Below are positions 8,336 to 52,133 of a stretch of DNA of 52,133 nt, piece by piece (the first letter of the stretch is position 1; each line of letters begins with the position of its first letter). Below the pieces are notes generated by a model. That model saw only the letters and a list, made by a program, of their open reading frames with translations. It ran no database searches and had not been told where the DNA came from. Source of the DNA: a virus; the IMG/VR virus record IMGVR_UViG_3300036791_000029, positions 1-52,133 of that record; one strand, written 5' to 3'. The position numbers were made by a program, and so were the translations under genes.

Positions 8336-8425
8336 GTTGTTCCTTTCTAGGGGCAACGATGTATGTAGCCTCTGGCGGGATTGTACATCGTTGTTAATGC
8401 GGCCACGTATATGCATTTGTATATA
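8285..8425 (+). promoter_or_regulatory. Three hairpins in the leader of the 8487 gene
   Basis: GCGTAGAT...ATCTACGC (about 8283-8304), CAACGATGTA...TACATCGTTG (about 8353-8392) and CGTATAT...ATATACG (about 8405-8426) form successive hairpins, with GAAAGGATGATCC between the first two. The arrangement resembles the two-hairpin leaders further right but in longer form. It may be the 3' part of the structured RNA or the leader of the next gene. Confidence 0.45.
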
Positions 8426-8486
8426 CGCGCTGGTGGGAAGCCCAGAAAACAAAACGCAGACCCAAACCCTAGTAAGGACACTTCAA

Positions 8487-8990
8487 ATGGCTAAGTTGAC
8501 TGCTTCCAAGGTTGCCTCTTTGCGTTCCTCCACAGCGCTGGCTACGCCAGTGTTTCACGTCTATGTTGTGGAGAACACTACTGATGGTGGCCGTTATGTG
8601 TCGGTGCGGAAGAACATTTCCGCCACGGCATTTTGGTCGTTGCTTTGTGTGGGTGCGCGCGATCCTAACTTTGATCAGCCTATCCACAACAGCATCCGTG
8701 TGATGGGTGATCAGAACTCATACCTTGAGGATTCACACCACAAGATCACTCGCGTCGCAACCTATACCTCCAAGACTGAGGCGCAGGTTGTTGCGGCCAA
8801 GATGATCGAGAACAACGCTATGAAGGCACGTGCCTACAACGCTACTCGGCCCAGCGCTGGGGCTTCCGCAGATTTTGAGTGGAAGTCAGAGGCTGAGTCA
8901 GCAGCGATGGTCAAGGCCGCAAAGGCCAAGACCCGCGCGCGCAAGAGCGCAAAGGTGACAGTTCCTGCTACCACAGAGGCTGTTGCCTAA
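8487..8990 (+). CDS. Hypothetical protein with Ala/Lys-rich basic tail
   Basis: A 167-residue protein, not recognised. The body (residues 20-120) looks like a mixed alpha/beta domain. The last 35 residues are rich in Ala, Lys and Arg (KAAKAKTRARKSAKVTVP), like histone-type nucleic-acid-binding tails. Its codons are visibly more GC-rich and regular than those of its neighbours, suggesting high expression or separate origin. The ATG at 8487 follows AAGGAC seven bases upstream; the frame extends further left through leader hairpins but without a ribosome site. A DNA- or RNA-binding early protein is likely. Confidence 0.65.
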   Translation: MAKLTASKVASLRSSTALATPVFHVYVVENTTDGGRYVSVRKNISATAFWSLLCVGARDPNFDQPIHNSIRVMGDQNSYLEDSHHKITRVATYTSKTEAQVVAAKMIENNAMKARAYNATRPSAGASADFEWKSEAESAAMVKAAKAKTRARKSAKVTVPATTEAVA

Positions 8991-8998
8991 GTCTACAA

Positions 8999-9106
8999 GT
9001 TGGGCGCCAGGAGTATATACGCTTCTGGCGCCCAGCGCCGTAGTGCGATGTGTGTCGCACCCGATGATTCCAAAAGGATGAAACGGCACTAGAAAGGAAT
9101 GGAACA
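8999..9106 (+). promoter_or_regulatory. Two-hairpin leader module 1
   Basis: TGGGCGCCAGGAG (9001-9013) pairs with CTTCTGGCGCCCA (9022-9034). A second hairpin follows, GTGCGA 9043-9048 / TCGCAC 9055-9060. The common tail CTAGAAAGGAATGGAACA runs directly into the next ATG and carries the ribosome site (AAAGGA). Confidence 0.75.
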
Positions 9107-9280
9107 ATGGAATACAACATAAAGCTATCTTGGCCGTCATACCAAGATACGCCCATCAAGGCAATAGACGAAATTGCCGATGCCTTCGCTGCCTTTCTCA
9201 AAGGACAATTCAGTATTGAATCCGAATTTGGTTTAACGGCAGAAGGAATCATCTTCACAATCTTGAAGGATGATGTTTGA
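9107..9280 (+). CDS. Hypothetical protein, 57 residues
   Basis: A small protein starting at the ATG right after leader module 1. It reads MEYNIKLSWPSYQD and goes on with DEIADAFAAFLKGQ and EGIIFTILKDDV: a strand, a helix and two strands, as in small phage early proteins. No function is known. Its stop TGA overlaps the next start (TGATG), so the zinc-ribbon gene that follows is coupled to it. Confidence 0.65.
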   Translation: MEYNIKLSWPSYQDTPIKAIDEIADAFAAFLKGQFSIESEFGLTAEGIIFTILKDDV

Positions 9281-9498
9281 TGGGATATGTTTTGGCAACG
9301 GGACATTGCATTTGCTGTGGACAAATCTTTAGCTTCAATCCACATCGAGTGCCGTCCACTTCAGCAATTACTGGTTCTCGCGAACCAGTATGTCTGAACT
9401 GCATGACCATCGTCAACCAGAAGCGAATTGCTGCTGGCGTCGCGCCTCATCCGATATACGATGATGCGTATGAGGCCATCAATGAGGATGAGTTGTAA
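9280..9498 (+). CDS. Small zinc-ribbon protein
   Basis: A 72-residue protein with two CxxC knuckles: CICC near residue 10 and CLNC near residue 39, between them GQIFSFNPHRVPS. The pattern, with C-terminal HPIYDDAYEAINEDEL, is typical of a small zinc-ribbon family common in actinobacteria, their phages and other phages; its role is unknown. Zn2+ binding and contact with nucleic acid or protein are inferred. The start overlaps the previous stop. Confidence 0.7.
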   Translation: MGYVLATGHCICCGQIFSFNPHRVPSTSAITGSREPVCLNCMTIVNQKRIAAGVAPHPIYDDAYEAINEDEL

Positions 9499-9507
9499 GC
9501 AACCTTA

Positions 9508-9586
9508 ACGGAATGAGCGCCAGGAGTAACAAGCTTCTGGCGGCTCATTCCGCTAGCGTTGTGCTAGTCTAGAAAGGAATGGAACA
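9508..9586 (+). promoter_or_regulatory. Two-hairpin leader module 2
   Basis: GGAATGAGCGCCAGGAG (9510-9526) pairs with CTTCTGGCGGCTCATTCC (9534-9551) along nearly its full length. The second hairpin is CTAGC 9553-9557 / GCTAG 9563-9567, where most other modules have CCAGC / GCTGG, a compensated change. TCTAGAAAGGAATGGAACA leads into the ATG. Confidence 0.8.
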
Positions 9587-10594
9587 ATGGAAAACTACAG
9601 TCTCACAGACTTGAGTAATGTTTCGTTGGCAAAGATTACGCCAGCAAAATTTCGTGAGATGGCTCTAGCCAAGATGCTGAGTTCTGGACCAGGAATGGAC
9701 ATCAACTATATGCCAACTACAAAAGAGTTGGATGTTATGGTAGATATGCTTGCCACAGCTGTTGCTGCCGGTAGGTTTATTGATTTTGGTTTCTGGCCTA
9801 ACGAATTCATCATAAAGAGCAGCGAAAGGGCATCAAACCTATACTATGAGGGTGCTCTTGGTCATCCGTTTTCGCAACCTTGGGTATTCTTCCATACTTG
9901 GAGCGATCCAAAATTGGATGCTGCCTTTGGTCGTGATCACGACGCTGTTTCTATATACTTGGTGAATCCTTTCCCAGTCGATGGAAAGGCTGTTGCTTGT
10001 GACTTTGAGATCACAGCAATCGAGCCAATGAATGTCCTTGGAAAGCCAATGCTATGTGTTGGTGATCGTGGTGCGCTCTATTGCAAAATGGATCGCCCGC
10101 CTGGAGCGAAGTATGCTTGCTCGATAATTCCGGTCCAGTTTCGTTTTCCTATGCATTTCTGGAATGCATATGCAGACGAAATGGGTAAGGAACATGGAGC
10201 GCAAGCTGCCTTACAAGCGGCAGGTGCTAACATAATGGAGCCTGCGTTCTTGGCGCTTCAAATGCTCAATACTAGAGGCATACCTAAAGAGACGATGCGT
10301 GTTGATGATAGGTTAAATCGGGCACGTATCAAGAACAAAAAGCCACCGATACCACCTTACACAAAAGTGTCGAGCGAGGAATACATCACGACGTTTATGC
10401 GTTCTCCAACAGAGCGTCGTGCTAGCCAAGGTGGAACGCATGCTAGTCCAGTTGCCCATATCCGTATGGGTCATTGGCGGCATTATCAGAGCGGTGAACG
10501 AACGTTCATCAATGATACTCTAGTGAATGCTGATGAGAGTATGCGTAAAATCTTCAAGTCTAATCGTGCTGGGTATATAGTAAAGCAAGGTTGA
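9587..10594 (+). CDS. Conserved phage protein of unknown function, 335 residues
   Basis: Not assigned. The body is a mixed alpha/beta protein with many aromatic residues (FIDFGFWPNEF, PWVFFHTWSDP). Near the C-terminus RMGHWRHYQSGERTFINDTLV (about residues 298-318) resembles a short motif, H-x-R-x-x-x-S-G-x-x-x-x-V, seen at the ends of many unassigned phage proteins. It stands alone behind its own two-hairpin leader in the early region, so its product is probably made in quantity soon after infection. A host-takeover role is only a guess. Confidence 0.6.
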   Translation: MENYSLTDLSNVSLAKITPAKFREMALAKMLSSGPGMDINYMPTTKELDVMVDMLATAVAAGRFIDFGFWPNEFIIKSSERASNLYYEGALGHPFSQPWVFFHTWSDPKLDAAFGRDHDAVSIYLVNPFPVDGKAVACDFEITAIEPMNVLGKPMLCVGDRGALYCKMDRPPGAKYACSIIPVQFRFPMHFWNAYADEMGKEHGAQAALQAAGANIMEPAFLALQMLNTRGIPKETMRVDDRLNRARIKNKKPPIPPYTKVSSEEYITTFMRSPTERRASQGGTHASPVAHIRMGHWRHYQSGERTFINDTLVNADESMRKIFKSNRAGYIVKQG

Positions 10595-10672
10595 CGGAAT
10601 GAGCGCCAGGAGTAATGACCTGGTTGCTCATTCCGCCAGCGATTATTGCTGGGTCTAGAAAGGAATGGAACA
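10595..10672 (+). promoter_or_regulatory. Two-hairpin leader module 3
   Basis: GGAATGAGC (10596-10604) pairs with GCTCATTCC (10626-10634), with CCAGG / CCTGG inside. The second hairpin is CCAGC 10636-10640 / GCTGG 10648-10652. The tail TCTAGAAAGGAATGGAACA precedes the ATG. The module begins inside the stop codon region of the previous gene. Confidence 0.8.
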
Positions 10673-10861
10673 ATGGAGGATTTGCGGTATCACAAATGTG
10701 ATAAAGCAGAACAATTTGCACTAATAGATGCTCGTGGTATCTTTTGTTGCTATGTTTGCGATAAATGCAAAGCAGCAAAGATGACCAAGTATCGTCCAGA
10801 AATATTTACTGATCCGAACTATTGGCACGATGAGCCAATAGATATAGATGATGAAACGTAG
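10673..10861 (+). CDS. Small zinc-finger-like protein (FTDPNYW family)
   Basis: A 62-residue protein with His/Cys ligands: HKCDK near the start and CCYVCDKCK in the middle, then KYRPEIFTDPNYWHDEPID. Small proteins with this FTDPNYW.DEPI ending are widespread in proteobacteria and their phages; their function is unknown. Zn2+ binding is likely. The ATG follows leader module 3; the frame is open 27 bases upstream, but the module tail fixes the start. Confidence 0.7.
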   Translation: MEDLRYHKCDKAEQFALIDARGIFCCYVCDKCKAAKMTKYRPEIFTDPNYWHDEPIDIDDET

Positions 10862-10915
10862 ACACACATCTATAATGTTCCGATAACAAGATAATCTGTT
10901 TGAAGAAACAAGGAA

Positions 10916-10945
10916 CTAGACCAAAAGCCTAGGACGCGCTATACT
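10916..10945 (+). promoter_or_regulatory. Candidate early promoter CTAGAC-N18-TATACT, copy 2
   Basis: CTAGAC (10916-10921) and TATACT (10940-10945) repeat the boxes and the 18-base spacing found at 5984-6013. It lies in a 170-base gap, just before leader module 4, where transcription could restart. Confidence 0.4.
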
Positions 10946-10953
10946 ATCGCTTA

Positions 10954-11029
10954 CGGAATGGGCGCCAGGAGTAACATTCTGGTAGCCTATTCCGCCAGCA
11001 ATAGTGCTGGGCTAGAAAGGAATGGAACA
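10954..11029 (+). promoter_or_regulatory. Two-hairpin leader module 4
   Basis: GGAATGGGCGCCAGGAG (from 10955) pairs imperfectly with CTGGTAGCCTATTCC (to 10993). The second hairpin is CCAGC 10995-10999 / GCTGG 11006-11010. GCTAGAAAGGAATGGAACA leads into the ATG. Confidence 0.75.
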
Positions 11030-11233
11030 ATGGAAAGAAACAATATTGATGCTGCTGAAAGAATCATGCGCGAAAAGCGGTGTAGAATACATTCGTTTTT
11101 TGCAAGTGGTATTGCTCAATACGCGGTCAAAAAGGATCAATTGAGTATATCGCCAAGCTTCCGCAGTATTAAAGAACTGTGTGATTGGGTTGTTCTACAC
11201 CAAAATGCTATTGGAATGGAGGACCCAGAGTAA
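11030..11233 (+). CDS. Hypothetical protein, 67 residues
   Basis: Not recognised; a small helical protein (DAAERIMREKRCRIHSFF, then SIKELCDWVVLHQN). The ATG at 11030 is fixed by leader module 4; the frame is open upstream only because the module has no stop. The stop TAA overlaps the next ATG (TAATG), so it is the first gene of a three-gene coupled unit with those at 11233 and 11568. Confidence 0.6.
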   Translation: MERNNIDAAERIMREKRCRIHSFFASGIAQYAVKKDQLSISPSFRSIKELCDWVVLHQNAIGMEDPE

Positions 11234-11571
11234 TGGCGATCATAAAGATCAGTAAGCATCGCAAGTATCAAGGACCCAATGTTGTTGGTGTGAATGTTCC
11301 CAAGACCTGGCAAGGATTAGACAATATATTCTTGCATAGGTCCCAGGTAAAAATCGGCCTGCGACTAGTCAACTATGGCCGACTATACCACGGAACATTG
11401 TGGGAAGTTGTGGAAATCAAAACAGTATCTACTGGCGGCAGAGTGACTAAGGTTGATTCTGTGAAACGTTCAAATGATATTGTTGTATTACTGCGAGTTG
11501 GCAGTAATGAGACAACACAGCTGGGCTTTATCTACTTGTCCTATAGTGCAATATGGAGGACAACTGAGTGA
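11233..11571 (+). CDS. Hypothetical beta-rich protein, 112 residues
   Basis: Not recognised. Alternating hydrophobic and charged residues (NVVGVNVPKTW, VKIGLRLVNYGRLYHGTLWEVVEI) suggest a small beta barrel, perhaps SH3-like. The start ATG overlaps the previous stop and follows GGAGG. It has no leader of its own, so its expression depends on module 4. Confidence 0.6.
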   Translation: MAIIKISKHRKYQGPNVVGVNVPKTWQGLDNIFLHRSQVKIGLRLVNYGRLYHGTLWEVVEIKTVSTGGRVTKVDSVKRSNDIVVLLRVGSNETTQLGFIYLSYSAIWRTTE

Positions 11572-11753
11572 AGAAACCACAGAAGAGACCACCAACATTA
11601 TCAGAGAGATTGAAGAGACTTGAGAGTATTGTCAAGAAACAAGATCGAAAAATCAAAGAATTAGAGAAGAAAGTTGAACACGTATTGGATGAGGATGTAT
11701 CTGCGATACCCAATAATGATAAGTTGAACAGACCTACACAGCATCCTGAATAG
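11568..11753 (+). CDS. Short coiled-coil protein
   Basis: A 61-residue basic protein. Residues 10-45 (LSERLKRLESIVKKQDRKIKELEKKVEHV) show a clear heptad pattern, so a dimeric or trimeric coiled coil is likely; the C-terminus is polar and disordered. The start is GTG at 11568, overlapping the previous stop and preceded by GGAGGA. The partner is unknown. Confidence 0.65.
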   Translation: MKKPQKRPPTLSERLKRLESIVKKQDRKIKELEKKVEHVLDEDVSAIPNNDKLNRPTQHPE

Positions 11754-11756
11754 CAG

Positions 11757-11841
11757 CCTTGACGGATGGGCGCCAGAAGAACAATACTCCTGGCCGCCTA
11801 TCCGCCAGCGCTGTTGCTGGAACTAGAAAGGAAAAGGAACA
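11757..11841 (+). promoter_or_regulatory. Two-hairpin leader module 5
   Basis: GGATGGGCGCCAG (from 11764) pairs with CTGGCCGCCTATCC (to 11802). Here the right arm carries CTCCTGG and the left arm CCAGAAG, the reverse of the other modules, so the motif has swapped sides. The second hairpin is CCAGC 11805-11809 / GCTGG 11816-11820. ACTAGAAAGGAAAAGGAACA precedes the ATG. Confidence 0.75.
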
Positions 11842-12153
11842 ATGGCAATTGTATGGATACCTATGCATCCACGAGCGCATCCTGATATGCTTGGTTATCT
11901 CCCAACATTCTTACTTGAAAATGATCCTAGACCGGCCAAAGAACAATTCCAAGAAAGATATGTATTTGGTGGCTGGAGTTCATTTGCAGGTTTTGAATTA
12001 ATAGCAAATGACAAATTAAAGTATCCAGGTGATCCACCAATATTGCCGATCTATAGAACATATTTGCGTGATGAAGAAATAACGATGTATGAACATGCGT
12101 GGGTAATGATAAGACAAAAAGATGGAACTTGGGAAGTATCCAGAATGGATTAG
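11842..12153 (+). CDS. Hypothetical protein, 103 residues
   Basis: Not recognised. It is rich in aromatic residues and Pro (IPMHPRAHPDMLGYLPTFL, YVFGGWSSFAGFEL) and ends in two likely strands (AWVMIRQKDGTWEVSR), suggesting a compact alpha/beta fold. It is a single gene behind leader module 5, whose tail sets the ATG. A TTG-led frame in another register overlaps it but lacks a ribosome site. Confidence 0.6.
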   Translation: MAIVWIPMHPRAHPDMLGYLPTFLLENDPRPAKEQFQERYVFGGWSSFAGFELIANDKLKYPGDPPILPIYRTYLRDEEITMYEHAWVMIRQKDGTWEVSRMD

Positions 12154-12159
12154 CAGTAT

Positions 12160-12262
12160 TGATGGAATATACGAACGTATCTACGTCGCGTATATACGAT
12201 CGTATATTCCACCAGCGCTGCGCTGGAAAGCCTAACTAACTCTGTCTAGAAAGGATGGAACA
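12160..12262 (+). promoter_or_regulatory. Two-hairpin leader module 6 (divergent arms)
   Basis: The first stem is different in sequence but preserved in form: GGAATATACGA (12164-12174) pairs with TCGTATATTCC (12200-12210). The right arm is part of the 16-bp palindrome ATATACGATCGTATAT (12192-12207), identical to that at 1465. The second hairpin is CCAGC / GCTGG (about 12212-12225). CCTAACTAAC and TCTAGAAAGGATGGAACA follow. Confidence 0.7.
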
Positions 12263-12505
12263 ATGGACGAAAAGTTCACTTTGATTGTGGAAGGCAAGAT
12301 GTCTCATGACATTACTGCCATAGCACCCCACGATCTAGAGTTGAATGGCCTTACTTGGCACAATGATTCGCCTCCAGATATTGTGGTCATGCATGATCTT
12401 ATACTTGTCAAAGTAGGCAAGTATACTTCGCATGAAAATAGATACCAATACAGGATAGCTGATGTTGCTCATCTTATTGGTGGTAGACTGGAGGCAGTGA
12501 GATGA
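12263..12505 (+). CDS. Hypothetical protein, 80 residues
   Basis: Not recognised. It has a mixed strand-helix pattern (FTLIVEGKMSHDIT, DIVVMHDLILVKVGKY), ending in a short helix. The ATG at 12263 follows leader module 6. The stop overlaps the next ATG (ATGA), coupling it to the zinc-ribbon gene. Confidence 0.6.
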   Translation: MDEKFTLIVEGKMSHDITAIAPHDLELNGLTWHNDSPPDIVVMHDLILVKVGKYTSHENRYQYRIADVAHLIGGRLEAVR

Positions 12506-12696
12506 GATGGAGAGAAACCCAGAAGGTGCCATTTAGATTAATACAAACACAATGCTGTGGAACTCAACTCTGTTGGGTAAATCCACGGCTGCCTATGCAT
12601 TGTCCTGAATGTGGTAAGTTTTGTTATCCAGCAGTAAAAGGCTGGGTAACAAATACATTTAACAATGCAATGCTTGTGTATGATGTAGAAAGATAG
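12502..12696 (+). CDS. Small zinc-ribbon protein
   Basis: A 64-residue protein with CCG near residue 18, C near 24 and HCPECGKFCY near 33-42, a likely zinc ribbon. It overlaps the upstream stop by four bases. It is the third small Cys-rich protein in this early region, all of unknown role; such proteins often bind host RNA polymerase or nucleic acid, but nothing here shows a target. Confidence 0.6.
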   Translation: MRWRETQKVPFRLIQTQCCGTQLCWVNPRLPMHCPECGKFCYPAVKGWVTNTFNNAMLVYDVER

Positions 12697-12703
12697 CAGT
12701 ATT

Positions 12704-12780
12704 GACGGAATGGGCGCCAGGAGCAAATACTTCTGGCCGCCTATTCAGCCAGCACTGCGCTGGTGAAAGGAAAAGGAACA
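12704..12780 (+). promoter_or_regulatory. Two-hairpin leader module 7
   Basis: GGAATGGGCGCCAGGAG (from 12707) pairs with CTTCTGGCCGCCTATTC (to 12746). The second hairpin is CCAGC 12749-12753 / GCTGG 12759-12763. The shortened tail GTGAAAGGAAAAGGAACA leads into the ATG. Confidence 0.75.
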
Positions 12781-13248
12781 ATGGAAAAGAATTATATGGG
12801 ATATGTATATGCATCAGCAGAACGCCATAAAGATACATTTAAGCGATATGAGGCTGGTGAATCTATAGAATCAATTGCCAAGAGTTATGGAGTGGTTCCT
12901 CAAACTATTCAACACCATCTCAAAAATATGGGTATCAAAACTAATTCAGAAACAAAAAGGCGATTGGTTGTATTAGCAAAGCAAAATGGTATTGATGTCG
13001 ATAGATGGCTAAGTATTTTACCAGAGAATATTGCATGGCAACAAATCTATTGGGAACGTCATCAATGCATGTTTAGAGCTGTGAATTTAGGCTTGCCTAT
13101 TAAAACAATTGAACATATATTCAATATATCTAGAGCACGTCTTTATCAACTAAGATTAGAACGTGAAAAAGGATATAGAAAACGACATCAGTCACCTGCT
13201 GAAAGATGGTTTTCATCTAGAAGATATTTGACTGATTTTGTGTCTTGA
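12781..13248 (+). CDS. Helix-turn-helix DNA-binding protein
   Basis: A 155-residue protein with two helix-turn-helix signatures. ESIESIAKSYGVVPQTIQHHLKNMG (about residues 24-48) is a resolvase or sigma-region-4-like unit. LPIKTIEHIFNISRARLYQLRLERE (about 106-130) is a second. The C-terminus is basic. It closes the early block just before the DNA metabolism genes, so it may regulate their transcription. The ATG after leader module 7 is preferred to an upstream GTG in the module tail. Confidence 0.7.
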   Translation: MEKNYMGYVYASAERHKDTFKRYEAGESIESIAKSYGVVPQTIQHHLKNMGIKTNSETKRRLVVLAKQNGIDVDRWLSILPENIAWQQIYWERHQCMFRAVNLGLPIKTIEHIFNISRARLYQLRLEREKGYRKRHQSPAERWFSSRRYLTDFVS

Positions 13249-31538: not shown

Positions 31539-34355
31539 CTAGTGAATGGTTGGACGTTCTAGTTCTGCTACTCTAGCAGACAGTTCCTTTACTGCATTAA
31601 CTAGAGCAGCAATAATTGGAGTTGTAGCAACACCAAGTGATGGCTCTTCATCTTCTATTTCATCACGACCCAAAGTCATACCGAATGGTGATACTGCCTC
31701 AGGCAATACATCACGTATTTGCTGAGCACCAAAACCTATTTCAATTTTATCTAGTCCCTTCAGCCTGCGGAACTTGATTGGATTAATTTTCATAATTTCT
31801 TTCAGTCCGACATCTGATGATTCAATATCAAATTTAGAACGTTCATCAGAATAGTCTTGATACGGTCCATATCCTCCAACAGTTCCAAGACCATTATAAA
31901 CGCGATTCATAGTAACATCCATCATCCACAAACTGCCATTCGGAGTTATCCAATTTAGATTACCATTACTAGCATTCCAATTCCAATACCAGTTGCCAGC
32001 AAATTGCATAATGCGACCAGCACCACCAGAACCAATAACCATGCTATCATCTGACCATAGATACATAATATTGCCGCGTGCATAGATGGGACCATATGAC
32101 AAGACGTAAGTGCTAGCTTGAATGACGCCTCCAAATATATTTCCCCTGGCTGTTATGGTGCCAGCAGTATCAATAGTAAAATTGATAGTGCCATTCTCAA
32201 CAAATCGCCAGTATCCATCAGCACTGCTGCGACCCATGTAGTAGTTGCCATTATCAGCCACATACATGATGCCTGTGACATTCATAATGCTGTTGGTAGC
32301 GCGTATCCGCCCAGCCGTCATGCCGCCGCTGGCGTTGCTGTCGCCGTCCGCTTGTATGCTACCTGTCGAATGAATATATGCACCTGTCAATGTATTAACA
32401 GAAGTAATATTTCCATAAACCCATAAATTACACGAACCATCTAATGTCATATTCTGACCATTATTAGCGCAATACCAACCACGTAGACCGTCTGAGATAC
32501 GCCACCAATCATACCAACCAGCTTGCCAATTGAAATAGCGGTTGCTGGCATCAGCACTTAATCCAAAGTCAGTGCGGCCCATAGCATAGACGCCAAGACC
32601 GCCAAGTATATTACTGGCAACAGTTAAAACAGAACTAACTGTTAAACTTTGACCAATCGTTACTAATCCAGAAGCTCGATTAATTGATATTGGAGCACCA
32701 AGATAATTACTGGCATCATCATACCTATTAATATTAAAATTGGAACCAGCGTTGCTTCCACTTTCAGCAACACTATCGCCAATTTCAACATCCCAACGCA
32801 AACTAGAGCCAGTATAACTTAAAATTCTCCTGCCATTTCCAGAAGCACTTTGCATTTGAAAAGTAGCAAAACCAGATGTAGCATTGGCGACAAAAGTTGC
32901 ACTAACCGCACTGACGTTAACATTACCACTTAATACACCACCAGTCAAAGGCAAATAAGGACCACCAAGAGGCTGATGGTTATCTACATATTGCTTAGTC
33001 ACAGCCATCAATGCAGAAGTAGGATCAGCATTAAGTAATAATGGTCCTGTTAAAGTTCCACCAGCTAACAATAATACTCTTTGCCACGCAGCATTATAAC
33101 GACCATAAGCAAAACTATCTAATGGTGCTTCTGGAACTTCTCCTGGCGCGCCTTGTGGGCCAACTGGGCCTTGCGGTCCAGTATTACCAACATCACCTTT
33201 TATACCTTGTGGTCCTTGTTGTCCTTGAGGACCAGTATTACCTATTGGTCCTTGCGGTCCAATTGGTCCAACATTACCTTGTGGACCTTGCGGTCCGATT
33301 GGTCCTGGCACTGTGCTGTCTGCGCCTGTAGCACCAATTGGGCCTTGTGGTCCAACATCACCTTGTGGACCTGTAGGACCAGTATTACCTATTGGTCCTT
33401 GCGGTCCAGTATCACCAGTATTACCTATTGGTCCTTGCGGTCCAGTATTACCTGTAGCACCAATTGGACCTTGTGGACCGGATGGGCCCATAGGACCAAC
33501 ATCACCTTGAGCACCAGTATTACCTCTTGGGCCTTGCGGTCCAGTTGGTCCGACTGGACCAGGAACTGTACTTGCCGCACCAGTATCACCTTTTGGTCCT
33601 TGCGGGCCTGGTGGACCTACATCGCCTTGTGGTCCCTGTGGACCAGTTGGGCCTGGTGGTCCTTGAACTCCACTACTAGCTACACTATCAACATAAGTTT
33701 TGGTTGTTGCCTCCATTGGAGAAACAGGAGGTTGCGTTAGCATTAAATGAGATGCTGCAGTAATAATTCCAGGAGCGCGTGCTGAACCTCCTAAAGTAAT
33801 TGATGGAGAGTCAACAGTAAATGCTTGCTGTGCTTGCTGGACTATATTACCATTCTGATCTATAGTTACAGTGCTCTTATCATTACCAGTAACAATATTG
33901 TTATCTTTAGTTATCGTCAAATGAGACTTGTCAAACTTCATTACTACATCGTCAGAATTGCCCACAATACCAGTAGGTTGGCATCCAGGTATAAACACAC
34001 TATCAGAAAGGTCGAACTGTCGAGGATCATCAGGCATTTCGTTTTTGCCATCAAGCCAACCTTCCAAAGATCGTTGCTGAACAGCAAGCATTCCTCCATC
34101 ACCAGGTTGAAGAGGAAATGTCATACTAGCTTTACCACCACCAGAAGCAGTAAAGATAACTGGCACTTCTACAATTTGTGGTGGTTCTAATGGCTCCTCA
34201 CTAGACAACCTTTTAGGCAATACTGGTTTTACAACAGCACGATTTGTTTGTGCATTATAACTAACAATAGTGGCAGGCAAATTGGTATTTAGAGTATTAC
34301 CAAGTTGGACCTCTATTTGCTGTTCGATTAGTTCAGTGAGATCAATTCTAAGCAT
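31539..34355 (-). CDS. Baseplate spike-fibre fusion: Gp138-like, collagen-like and S74 domains
   Basis: A 938-residue modular protein. Residues 1-130 look like the Gp138 N-terminal OB-type domain of baseplate spikes ([46 protein letters not shown]). A linker holds [10 protein letters not shown]. From about 231 to 405 come Gly-X-Y collagen-like repeats rich in GPQGP and GPIGNTGP. A shaft with repeated TKQYVDN- and NGNI-type segments follows. The last 100 residues form an S74 chaperone ([32 protein letters not shown]). Having the spike base, flexible collagen stalk and self-cleaving tip in one chain is unusual. The start overlaps the hub stop (TAATG). Confidence 0.8.
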
Positions 34356-49915: not shown

Positions 49916-51321
49916 GACGATAATGCCAAGTAACGTTCATATTGCGATACACCAGCGATACATTCTAGATAGGCACCACTACTGGCGTCAATATAATCAT
50001 CATGATCACCCTCAGGAAAAACAGCCATTTCCTTCAAGTAATCATTCACCCACTGGCCTTCAACTATGTCAATATTACCAGCTTGCCATTGCGCAGATAG
50101 TGGTTCTGCCCTCGTTTCTTTTGGTCCAGTTTCTCTTACTGACTTAGCCTTGAAGCCGGCAAGATGAGAGATGAGACTTGCTGATTGATCCTTTCCAGCC
50201 TGTCCTGGATCTTGTGGCACGACCGTTGTAACTCGTTTATACTTGTTACGATCCTGCCAAGCAGTATTAAGCAATATATCACGAACAATAGAAGCATTAT
50301 GTCTAATGCTAATACCATCAGCAATACATATGCGGCCATTCTCTCTGCGACCCATTAATACTGAAGCTGTAGCACTAGGCGAAGGATTAACTTCACTAGG
50401 TTCTGTGGCAGCCAAATCCCAGCGACGCACCCACATCTTCACATCAGTAGGAACAGCAGGAATAATCTTGGCCATTACTTGAGGGAAATAAGAACCAGCA
50501 CTAGGTCTAATCTTCCAATTACCATGTAACAGACGTTCACGCTCAACTCTAGTCATCATCTCTAGGTTGGCACGATAGTCTGGGTCTTGTTCGTTCAGAA
50601 TAACATTATCTTCTAATGTTGCCGGAATGAATGTAAATGACTTAGGCAACGACGCAGGGAATTTATTGAGTAACTCCTGGCGCGTGTCAGCCCAAAACAT
50701 TTTATCATCAAATCTGACAAAGTAACGAATAATGCCACTTCGTTCTAATATTGGGTAACCAGTATCTTGATCAATCCACCAAGAGACTAGATCAGCAACC
50801 CAAGAGTCAGCATCAGGATTGCAAGTAGCACGTATATACGGTCTAACACCACACATCGAACGATTACGAGACAGCATATACCAAAATTGCTTCTCGGTGA
50901 AGTGAGTAAGCTCATCATATCCAATGAGTGGTATCTGCGAGCCTTGCCAATCCAGCACATCCTTTTCTTGGTTGAGATGGCCAAACGTTATTGTCGATCC
51001 ACTAGGGAAAGACCATGAACGATATGGACTTTGTTTTGGTATACCATCTATACGCACATATATGCCGAAACTTGTATCAAACAAACCACCTTCTGAGGTT
51101 ATTTGTACAGCTTCACGACGGAATATGACTGCTCCAAAGTCACTATTGTCGAGGTGTCGGCATGGTTCTAACAGTAATGCGTATGTTTTGCCGCCTCCGG
51201 CTGCACCTCCATATATGGCTATGTCAGCACTAGTAGACAAGAATTGTTCTTGTGGTCCAGGTTGCGGACCAATATCATTAGTATCATCAAATCCATCATA
51301 CATATTATGCCGCTTCCCCAT
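49912..51321 (-). CDS. terL: Terminase large subunit
   Basis: The ATPase-nuclease that packages DNA, 469 residues. Walker A is GGAAGGGKT (about 39-47), Walker B lies in LIGYDELTHF, followed by LSRNRS. The RNase H-like nuclease domain has RRWDLAATE (first Asp), VVPQDPGQAGKDQ and HDDYIDASSGAY (last Asp). Length fits the family. The ATG at 51321 overlaps terS; TTG at 51324 or ATG at 51303 are alternatives. A diverged allele of its start is at 1-127. Confidence 0.88.
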   Translation of the reverse strand: MGKRHNMYDGFDDTNDIGPQPGPQEQFLSTSADIAIYGGAAGGGKTYALLLEPCRHLDNSDFGAVIFRREAVQITSEGGLFDTSFGIYVRIDGIPKQSPYRSWSFPSGSTITFGHLNQEKDVLDWQGSQIPLIGYDELTHFTEKQFWYMLSRNRSMCGVRPYIRATCNPDADSWVADLVSWWIDQDTGYPILERSGIIRYFVRFDDKMFWADTRQELLNKFPASLPKSFTFIPATLEDNVILNEQDPDYRANLEMMTRVERERLLHGNWKIRPSAGSYFPQVMAKIIPAVPTDVKMWVRRWDLAATEPSEVNPSPSATASVLMGRRENGRICIADGISIRHNASIVRDILLNTAWQDRNKYKRVTTVVPQDPGQAGKDQSASLISHLAGFKAKSVRETGPKETRAEPLSAQWQAGNIDIVEGQWVNDYLKEMAVFPEGDHDDYIDASSGAYLECIAGVSQYERYLALSS

Positions 51322-51622
51322 CAATAATTTTGACAGGAGTATTCATGCGGCCATTGTCTGGTAAATATACTTTGACCCTACTAGAACTTTGGTTCGCACT
51401 AGTATCGTCATTAATGTACACTGTTTGACGTGGCTTGCCATATGCGCGATTAGACACAAACTCCATTAGACGAATGCGATCACCATGTGACATAGATGGA
51501 TCAGCAAACATCTCGTCAACTTGGCGAAGGATTGTGGGTGTGCGTTGACGACATTCAGTCATCATTTCGCGCAAGGTATAAATGCGCGCTAGCTCAGTGT
51601 GAGGATCGAAACCATCAGGCAT
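51305..51622 (-). CDS. terS: Terminase small subunit-like protein, right allele
   Basis: A 105-residue protein identical in sequence to that at 111-428, encoded by DNA that differs at several third codon positions. It is coupled to the complete terL downstream. GGTGGA lies about 12 bases before the ATG. The gap to the nuclease allele (51623-51770) holds no gene; it is AT-rich and contains an ACGTAG / CTACGT inverted repeat near its end. Confidence 0.75.
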   Translation of the reverse strand: MPDGFDPHTELARIYTLREMMTECRQRTPTILRQVDEMFADPSMSHGDRIRLMEFVSNRAYGKPRQTVYINDDTSANQSSSRVKVYLPDNGRMNTPVKIIDGEAA

Positions 51623-51770
51623 TACATTGTGACGTCCACCAGAATAACATTACGTACAAGAGACGTTAGCGCGTATATACCATCGTAGTTGCGCAGTCTA
51701 GTCACTAACTTTATTCTCGCGATAAGTTTACCTATTCCTAATTCGTTCTCTATAGTTACTGACGAAACTA

Positions 51771-52133
51771 TCACGTAGATACGTTCGTAGCTACGTTGTT
51801 TTTAGCCTGCGGAACAAACAAATCCTTAAACCAGTCATATATCTCCCATTTATCTTCTGTGAACTTTACAAGTTGTTCAATTTTTATTGGATGCTTAGGC
51901 ACACTTAACCATGTTGACCAATTACCACAACGCAATACTCCAAACTTTGTTATCTCATCGCGATAATCATAAAAGCCAAGAAACAAAAAACAAAAGCCTC
52001 CTGATCGTTGCCACTTAGCTAACCAAGCAGCTTGATCAGCTGTTAGTTCTGAAACTCTAAATGTTGTAGCTCTAAATCTATGTTCTATAACTTTGAGTTC
52101 AAACCATACAATACGCGAGTTGTTGATTTGTAT
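51771..52133 (-). CDS. PD-(D/E)XK nuclease, C-terminal part, second allele (cut by window end)
   Basis: The start lies beyond the window. The visible 120 codons cover the ExK motif (FELKV) to the end and are close to residues 35-153 of the left copy, with changes such as VIEHRFRATTF for VIQYKFGASTF. The C-terminus differs fully after FVPQA (KNNVATNVST against TRAASGVANV), where the left allele leads into the 82-codon gene. This marks the recombination or deletion boundary. Confidence 0.8.
   Translation of the reverse strand: MQINNSRIVWFELKVIEHRFRATTFRVSELTADQAAWLAKWQRSGGFCFLFLGFYDYRDEITKFGVLRCGNWSTWLSVPKHPIKIEQLVKFTEDKWEIYDWFKDLFVPQAKNNVATNVST

Follow-up and report, generated by a model that had tools for sequence, protein, structure and literature searches.

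We analysed a window of 52,133 nucleotides, which is the whole of the phage contig IMGVR_UViG_3300036791_000029. By its gene content (terminase, portal, tail sheath, DNA polymerase) this is a contractile-tailed phage, and our subject is the array of small early genes that starts with gene 8487. A folded RNA sits directly 5′ of the ribosome-binding site of nearly every early gene, both here and in related phages. Read from their sequences, the leaders of the window appear to be of three kinds: a twister-type leader before gene 8487, a hammerhead-type leader before gene 9107 (module 1) and, in modules 2-7, a single element absent from Rfam, referred to here as the YUNA-CCAR element. The sequence-only reading had placed structured leaders before the genes at 9107, 9587, 10673, 11030, 11842, 12263 and 12781, and all of them are present. 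The one arrangement that it gave to all seven applies to modules 2-7 and fails for module 1, in which GTGCGA/TCGCAC, taken for a second hairpin, belongs to a hammerhead fold (9038-9086) as its stem I. The different first stem of module 6 and the changed hairpin motif of module 5 were both seen again. An outer helix (P0), the twister-like leader of 8487 and the dispersed nature of the repeat CGCCAGGAG go beyond that reading.

The YUNA-CCAR element

Copies of the element were gathered by a descriptor search and two covariance models, yielding 46 copies, 41 of them distinct, across the window, its relatives and distant contigs (contigs are denoted by L and G numbers). From 5′ to 3′ the element consists of one strand of P0, 0-2 unpaired nucleotides, YUNA, the P1 hairpin, CCAR, the partner strand of P0, CUGG and the tail. 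CCAR stands flush against P1 with no gap, the unpaired nucleotides between CCAR and P0 are usually equal in number to those on the 5′ side, and the tip of P1 is often a CGCCAGGAG or CGTATATACG repeat. In modules 2-7, P0 is formed by 4-7 nucleotides upstream of YTNA, which pair with the loop of the second hairpin, and the 3′ CUGG is complementary to CCAR (helix P2). Module 6, which lay outside both training sets, was recovered by both models (42.1 bits; 39.6 bits, E 1.2e-8), and modules 2-7 fold much better than shuffled sequences (z = -4.2 to -6.3).

P0, P1 and P2 all covary. At least five P0 pairs are found in 32 of the 40 non-redundant copies, compared with a mean of 11.3 and a maximum of 21 in loop-exchange permutations (n=2000); a second scoring gave 183.4 vs 141.6 ± 6.2, with 0 of 20000 permutations as high. 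In an alignment across lineages (L201, L327 and the clade of the window), 99.1% of the cells are paired and both sides have changed at 11 of 17 pairs (5 of 6 in P0); none of 500 shuffles was as high. P2 occurs as CCAG/CUGG, CCAA/UUGG, CUAG/CUAG, CCUG/CAGG and CCAC/GUGG, and its complement is present in all 7 of the copies without CCAG vs 22 of 238 in the control. The selected structure that had been suggested from the window is thus borne out with homologues and controls, for these three helices and for the pairs of the hammerhead.

A very distant phage, L201 (IMGVR_UViG_3300017754_003785; 60% G+C), carries an array of ten copies, the majority of which fill the space from one gene to the ribosome-binding site of the next. 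L201 and the window have only distant replication genes in common (DNA polymerase 39%, helicase 30%), and its array has no Rfam match. L327/L328 hold a further copy, in which P0 is GGGAGC/GCUCCC where L201 has GGAAGC/GCUUCC. Among 4227 Rfam models (E up to 5), modules 2-7 gave only chance-level hits to unrelated families. A search of about 400 genomes from each of two phyla, those to which a Corynebacterium and a Bartonella metagenome-assembled genome belong, yielded no copy, but it was a weak one in which few candidates were scored per genome. A permuted hammerhead reading of modules 2-7 was rejected for want of a CUGANGA core, and a search for their cores with the pattern CCGCCAGC/GCTGG returned at least 120 stretches, those analysed of which look like chance.

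Twister and hammerhead leaders and their exchange

The leader of gene 8487 is laid out as UAAUGCGGCC, a P3 hairpin, CUGG-UGGGAAG-CCCAG and GCAGACCC. With the Rfam twisters (RF02684, RF03160) it shares the core UAAUGC...AAG...GCAGA, helices P2/P4 and the T1 pseudoknot, and it differs from them by its GGG/CCC T1, a very short P1 and a score below the Rfam limits. T1 covaries, being GGG/CCC in the window, GGC/GCC in L007 and L097, CUC/GAG in L005 and GAC/GUC in L004; the leaders of the 8487 orthologues in L005, L007 and L004 match Rfam twister-P1 with E-values of 1e-6 to 4e-4, below gathering. On the opposite (minus) strand, at 8340-8410, lies a leftward leader with the tail CTAGAAAGGAACAA and a hairpin AACGATGTA/TACATCGTT around AATCCCGC...GCTACA. 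It appears to be another unclassified structured RNA, with (A)ATCCCGC kept within differing stems of its counterparts in L095, L097, L098 and L112.

Module 1 is best described as hammerhead-derived rather than as a certified member of the family. It carries a GUA cleavage triplet (9040-9042), GAAA (9080-9083) and three helices around the core with stem III open, whose pairs are kept with six relatives. Its core reads CCGAUGA (9061-9067), with C9062 at the position of the consensus U4, and departs from CUGANGA; the hammerheads of the six relatives all have CUGAUGA and fit that consensus. When the seven were aligned, 13 of 13 pairs were standard in every sequence and nine had changed on both sides (stem I 6/6, stem II 2/3, stem III 1/4), with a score reached by none of 500 shuffles. 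The folding energy of module 1 is unremarkable (z = -1.2). All seven, module 1 included, bear a U.U mismatch at 10.1/11.1, and such mismatches occur in natural active hammerheads (PMC3088659).

About ten related contigs were found by scanning IMG/VR for the tail, and their early-gene orthologues are ~30-85% identical to those of the window. Counted over about 12 related contigs, the same tail follows twister-P5, twister-P1, hammerhead or the YUNA-CCAR element. Twister-P5 scored above Rfam gathering in the leader slot in twelve matches, several of them from near-identical contigs; the matches to twister-P1 and Hammerhead_3 (type III) had E-values of 1e-8 to 1e-2, below gathering. All ribozyme matches are on the gene strand, and in L078 two twister-P5, three twister-P1 and one hammerhead match are consecutive.

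Exchange was assessed by clustering the genes directly behind leaders, with twister types taken from the Rfam matches and the near-identical contigs G002, G005 and G008 counted once. The script labels twister and 'TTGA' are regular expressions, and the sequence was read where they conflicted with it or with Rfam (for example at L078 4991, G009 and G001 2175, labelled TTGA). The leader of gene 11030 is the YUNA-CCAR element in four contigs (window, G007, L122, L078); other orthologues stand behind twister-P5 (G002 and G005), twister-P1 (G006), a hammerhead (G004) or a long plain hairpin (G009). For gene 11842 the element is found in the window, but its L122 and L078 orthologues follow twisters, and three more gene clusters swap hammerhead and twister.

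Other leaders were also seen. In L109:180-300, L109:1100-1200 and L099:2050-2150, the same tail is preceded by a long irregular hairpin, TGATCTAT-GGAGGG...CTCCCTGG-AGATCA. L104:12930-13005 and L105:10166-10240 (minus) have CATTTGC, a hairpin and GCTTTGCCCGATTAWGGGTG, an unclassified arrangement with a possible outer stem. The leader of 941 in L093 (860-945) has the features of a type I hammerhead (CTGATGA, GAAAC, GTC); that of 2175 in the same contig (2090-2180) has CTGATGA in an H-type pairing that we could not match to a known permutation.

Tail, dispersed repeats and phage context

The tail CTAGAAAGGAATGGAACA reads as an extended Shine-Dalgarno sequence, being complementary to a 16S 3′ end that we take to be ...CCUUUCUA / ...UCCUUUCUA, an assumed end rather than one derived from a host. 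Its exact 17 nucleotides (TAGAAAGGAATGGAACA) occur four times in the window vs 0.25 expected from shuffles, and variants precede 11842, 12263 and 12781. The common tail of the sequence-only reading is therefore identical in four modules and shortened or changed in modules 5, 6 and 7. Four bacterial genomes carry the bare tail without such a leader structure, hence the tail alone is a Shine-Dalgarno match. The proposed module motif GCGCCAGGAG proved not to be module-specific. CGCCAGGAG is the commonest 9-mer in the window (36 copies on both strands, expected ~0.5), with about half of the copies within genes; it is a dispersed repeat that doubles as hairpin tips. It numbers 11-45 copies per clade member and is absent from L201. 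GTATATACG is likewise repeated (11 copies).

The large terminase is ~52% identical to those of Rhizobium phages, which are among the nearest named relatives; no similarity to named phages was found at the DNA level, and no relative of gene 13924 was found in GTDB species. The contig ends (1-1106 vs 51198-52099) overlap by ~1 kb at 94-96% identity, so that the two ends seem to meet, with variation between strains. A 938-aa protein contains a short-period, collagen-like repeat region (33149-33653, minus).

Table 1. Leaders, genes and repeats of the early region, in window coordinates
Feature	Position	Strand	Remarks
Twister-type leader of gene 8487	8390..8469	+	read from sequence; predicted cut U8395/A8396
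Module 1	9038..9086	+	type III hammerhead fold; predicted cut A9042/G9043
Module 2	9497..9567	+	P2 CUAG/CUAG; 77.2 and 62.4 bits by two models, both trained on module 2
Module 3	10583..10652	+	both covariance models; 48.4 bits in second
Module 4	10942..11010	+	P0 ACUAU/AUAGU; both covariance models; 54.7 bits in second
Module 5	11751..11820	+	both covariance models; 60 bits in second
Module 6	12151..12226	+	first P1 pair U-A; P1 of CGTATATACG-like repeats
Module 7	12694..12763	+	both covariance models; 62.6 bits in second
Gene 8487	8487..8990	+	167 aa, without family match; first gene of array; orthologues in relatives
Gene 9107	9107..9280	+	57 aa; behind module 1
Gene 9587	9587..10594	+	335 aa; behind module 2; orthologues in most relatives, usually after a YUNA-CCAR element
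Gene 10673	10673..10861	+	62 aa; behind module 3
Gene 11030	11030..11233	+	67 aa; behind module 4; leader class varies among orthologues
Gene 11842	11842..12153	+	103 aa; behind module 5; leader class varies among orthologues
Gene 12263	12263..12505	+	80 aa; behind module 6
Gene 12781	12781..13248	+	155 aa, helix-turn-helix-like; behind module 7
Tail CTAGAAAGGAATGGAACA	9089..9106	+	extended Shine-Dalgarno; repeated at 9569-9586, 10655-10672, 11012-11029
CGCCAGGAG, example sites	3640, 7408, 9005, 17504, 26380, 38461		36 sites in total
CGCCAGGAG hairpin	9001..9034	+	directly 5′ of hammerhead; would cap 3′ end of upstream RNA

Probable RNA processing and its alternatives

Judging from these sequences, the region is probably an array of RNA-processing leaders, at which a long early transcript would be cut before each gene or short gene group. 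Cleavage is the likeliest function of the leaders because ribozyme classes and the element exchange before orthologous genes; the known members of this slot cut RNA, and therefore the slot most likely does so too. With bona fide ribozyme families in the same position before orthologous genes, RNA processing has become the best supported of the options listed in the sequence-only reading. The structures, their covariation and their exchange with ribozymes are seen directly; the cutting itself, the cut site and the cutting agent are inferred.

The long rightward transcript would be cut once before each of 8487, 9107, 9587, 10673, 11030, 11842, 12263 and 12781. Each cut would leave the upstream RNA with a hairpin, either P1 or the one formed by CGCCAGGAG, at its 3′ end or close to it, and the 5′ end of the downstream mRNA would receive a hairpin (hammerhead stem I or CCAG...CUGG) with a strong ribosome-binding site a few bases further on. 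The twister-P5 cut would fall directly behind its P1 hairpin and the hammerhead cut between the CGCCAGGAG hairpin and stem I, while modules 2-7 would be cut at or beside the P1/CCAR junction, leaving P1 and CCAG...CUGG. Before this cut P0 would close around a YUNA x CCAR internal loop, with CCAR opposite YUNA; afterwards P0 would fall apart, and CCAR and CUGG would form a 5′-terminal hairpin. Such a change of partner at the junction would account for the two competing pairings of CCAR. We tentatively propose modules 2-7 as a new small self-cleaving ribozyme class of ~60-80 nucleotides, whose YUNA x CCAR core includes an A.C mismatch and which phages would use interchangeably with twister and hammerhead to cut early transcripts before each gene. 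The modules combine covarying helices with conserved unpaired bases in a compact structure, as befits a self-cleaving ribozyme, and they also form an irregular duplex of about two helical turns, as befits an RNase III site.

Several observations weigh against the processing interpretation. The U, the A and the first C of the element are invariant across the 41 copies, an invariance that is overstated since the search patterns demanded U and A and favoured C; two copies found by model R1 without a base requirement (L099:4829 and L112:6304) agree with this core. In several copies P0 overlaps P2 or lies directly beside it, hence they may be alternatives rather than parts of one fold, which would fit a regulatory switch as well. 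P0 was first read as a pseudoknot with P2, and a nested P0 with P2 as its alternative is more likely, given the equal flanks and this overlap. Rfam gave no ribozyme hit in the window, whether at gathering or at permissive thresholds; for the leader at 8390-8469 this miss is probably explained by the change of its T1 to GGG/CCC. The C in place of U4 should slow cleavage by the hammerhead of the window, which, with a core unlike that of all other copies, may be slow or dead. Finally, the relatives G009, G004 and G010 include leaders that form plain long hairpins or have unknown folds, which would suit a host double-strand nuclease as well.

In the early region of phage T7, the RNase III sites known as R sites lie between the early genes; they are cut before these genes and leave a hairpin on the upstream RNA, and a host protein is required. 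Modules 2-7 share with these sites the predicted cut before early genes and the upstream-RNA hairpin. They might likewise be sites for RNase III or another host nuclease, each an irregular hairpin of ~24 pairs, interrupted by an internal loop, that would receive a single cut and stand beside true ribozymes with the same task. This reading owes its place as the main rival to the long irregular duplex that P0, YU/AR and P1 form before any cut, and to the long plain hairpins that occupy the same slot in relatives G009 and G004; it should be taken seriously even though we consider it unlikely. A nested internal loop also predicts the equal unpaired flanks found in 34 of the 42 copies having a P0 of four or more pairs, a figure that is an upper bound because tie-breaking preferred equal flank lengths. 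However, RNase III needs neither YUNA nor CCAR nor the covarying CUGG, all of which persist between phages with 39% identity in DNA polymerase; unlike at the T7 sites, relatives here use self-cleaving RNAs and the core of the element is conserved in sequence. Because of this conservation across lineages, self-cleavage of modules 2-7 is somewhat favoured over a host nuclease.

A switch of translation or mRNA stability, in which P0-P1 and CCAG/CUGG are alternative folds that control ribosome access or protect the mRNA and nothing is cut, would agree with the support for both pairings and with their competition in folding, and the 3′ end of the element lies only a few bases from the Shine-Dalgarno sequence. 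We regard it as quite improbable, since the Shine-Dalgarno tail pairs with neither P0 nor P2, and twister and hammerhead families occupy the same position before orthologues. Least probable are put-like antitermination, for which no positive evidence emerged, and signals for starting or stopping transcription. Each module does have two hairpins, and modules 5 and 7 score as sigma-70-like sites, but promoter-like matches number 16 vs 11.2 ± 3.3 in shuffles and no module has a terminator-like site on the + strand. Unlike put, the modules come as one copy per gene, up to ten in series. TTGAC, considered as a -35 box, is not kept in other copies, where CTAAC or CTTAC replaces it.

Comparable arrangements are known. 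In prophages, hammerheads are clustered around single genes or small gene blocks, and transcript processing was proposed for them; in haloviruses HF1/HF2, HHphage lies 13 nt upstream of a start codon and one 5′ end maps to the cut site (Perreault et al. 2011, PMC3088659). Those systems are similar in that ribozymes flank phage genes and in the common U10.1-U11.1 mismatch, but they comprise hammerheads only, whereas the leader design and tail described here are common to twister-P5, twister-P1, hammerhead and an unclassified element, which interchange before orthologues. The likeness to the start-associated sequences (SAS) of Cluster K mycobacteriophages and their extended form (ESAS; PMC3203893), drawn in the sequence-only reading, extends to the arrangement, an inverted repeat and a conserved start-proximal sequence before many small genes, and to nothing beyond it. 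The SAS 13-mer GGGATAGGAGCCC is not present before the start codons here, where the tail is CTAGAAAGGAATGGAACA, and ESAS is a 17-bp sequence-conserved repeat, unlike a covarying three-helix RNA with ribozyme substitutes. Less probably than the nested fold, modules 2-7 might form a permuted pistol-like pseudoknot. As in the pistol and pseudoknotted hammerhead ribozymes (PMC4604425, PMC11300833), a hairpin loop pairs with an outside strand, but here the partner strand is upstream and neither a pistol nor a hammerhead core is present. In gut phages, theta ribozymes occur in association with tRNAs (PMC10879173). Neither per-gene arrays of mixed ribozyme classes nor the YUNA-CCAR element was found in the literature searched, in which subscription papers were thinly covered and motif lists in supplements, such as the RAGATH motifs, were compared via Rfam only.

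These arrays bear on the biological role of twister and hammerhead ribozymes in bacteria and phages: several classes fill a single defined slot ahead of orthologous genes and share a common tail, so that the function of the slot is testable by swapping modules. The YUNA-CCAR element, with its 46 copies, offers a concrete candidate for a ribozyme class of its own and, even if it were cut by a protein, would be a conserved processing signal absent from Rfam.

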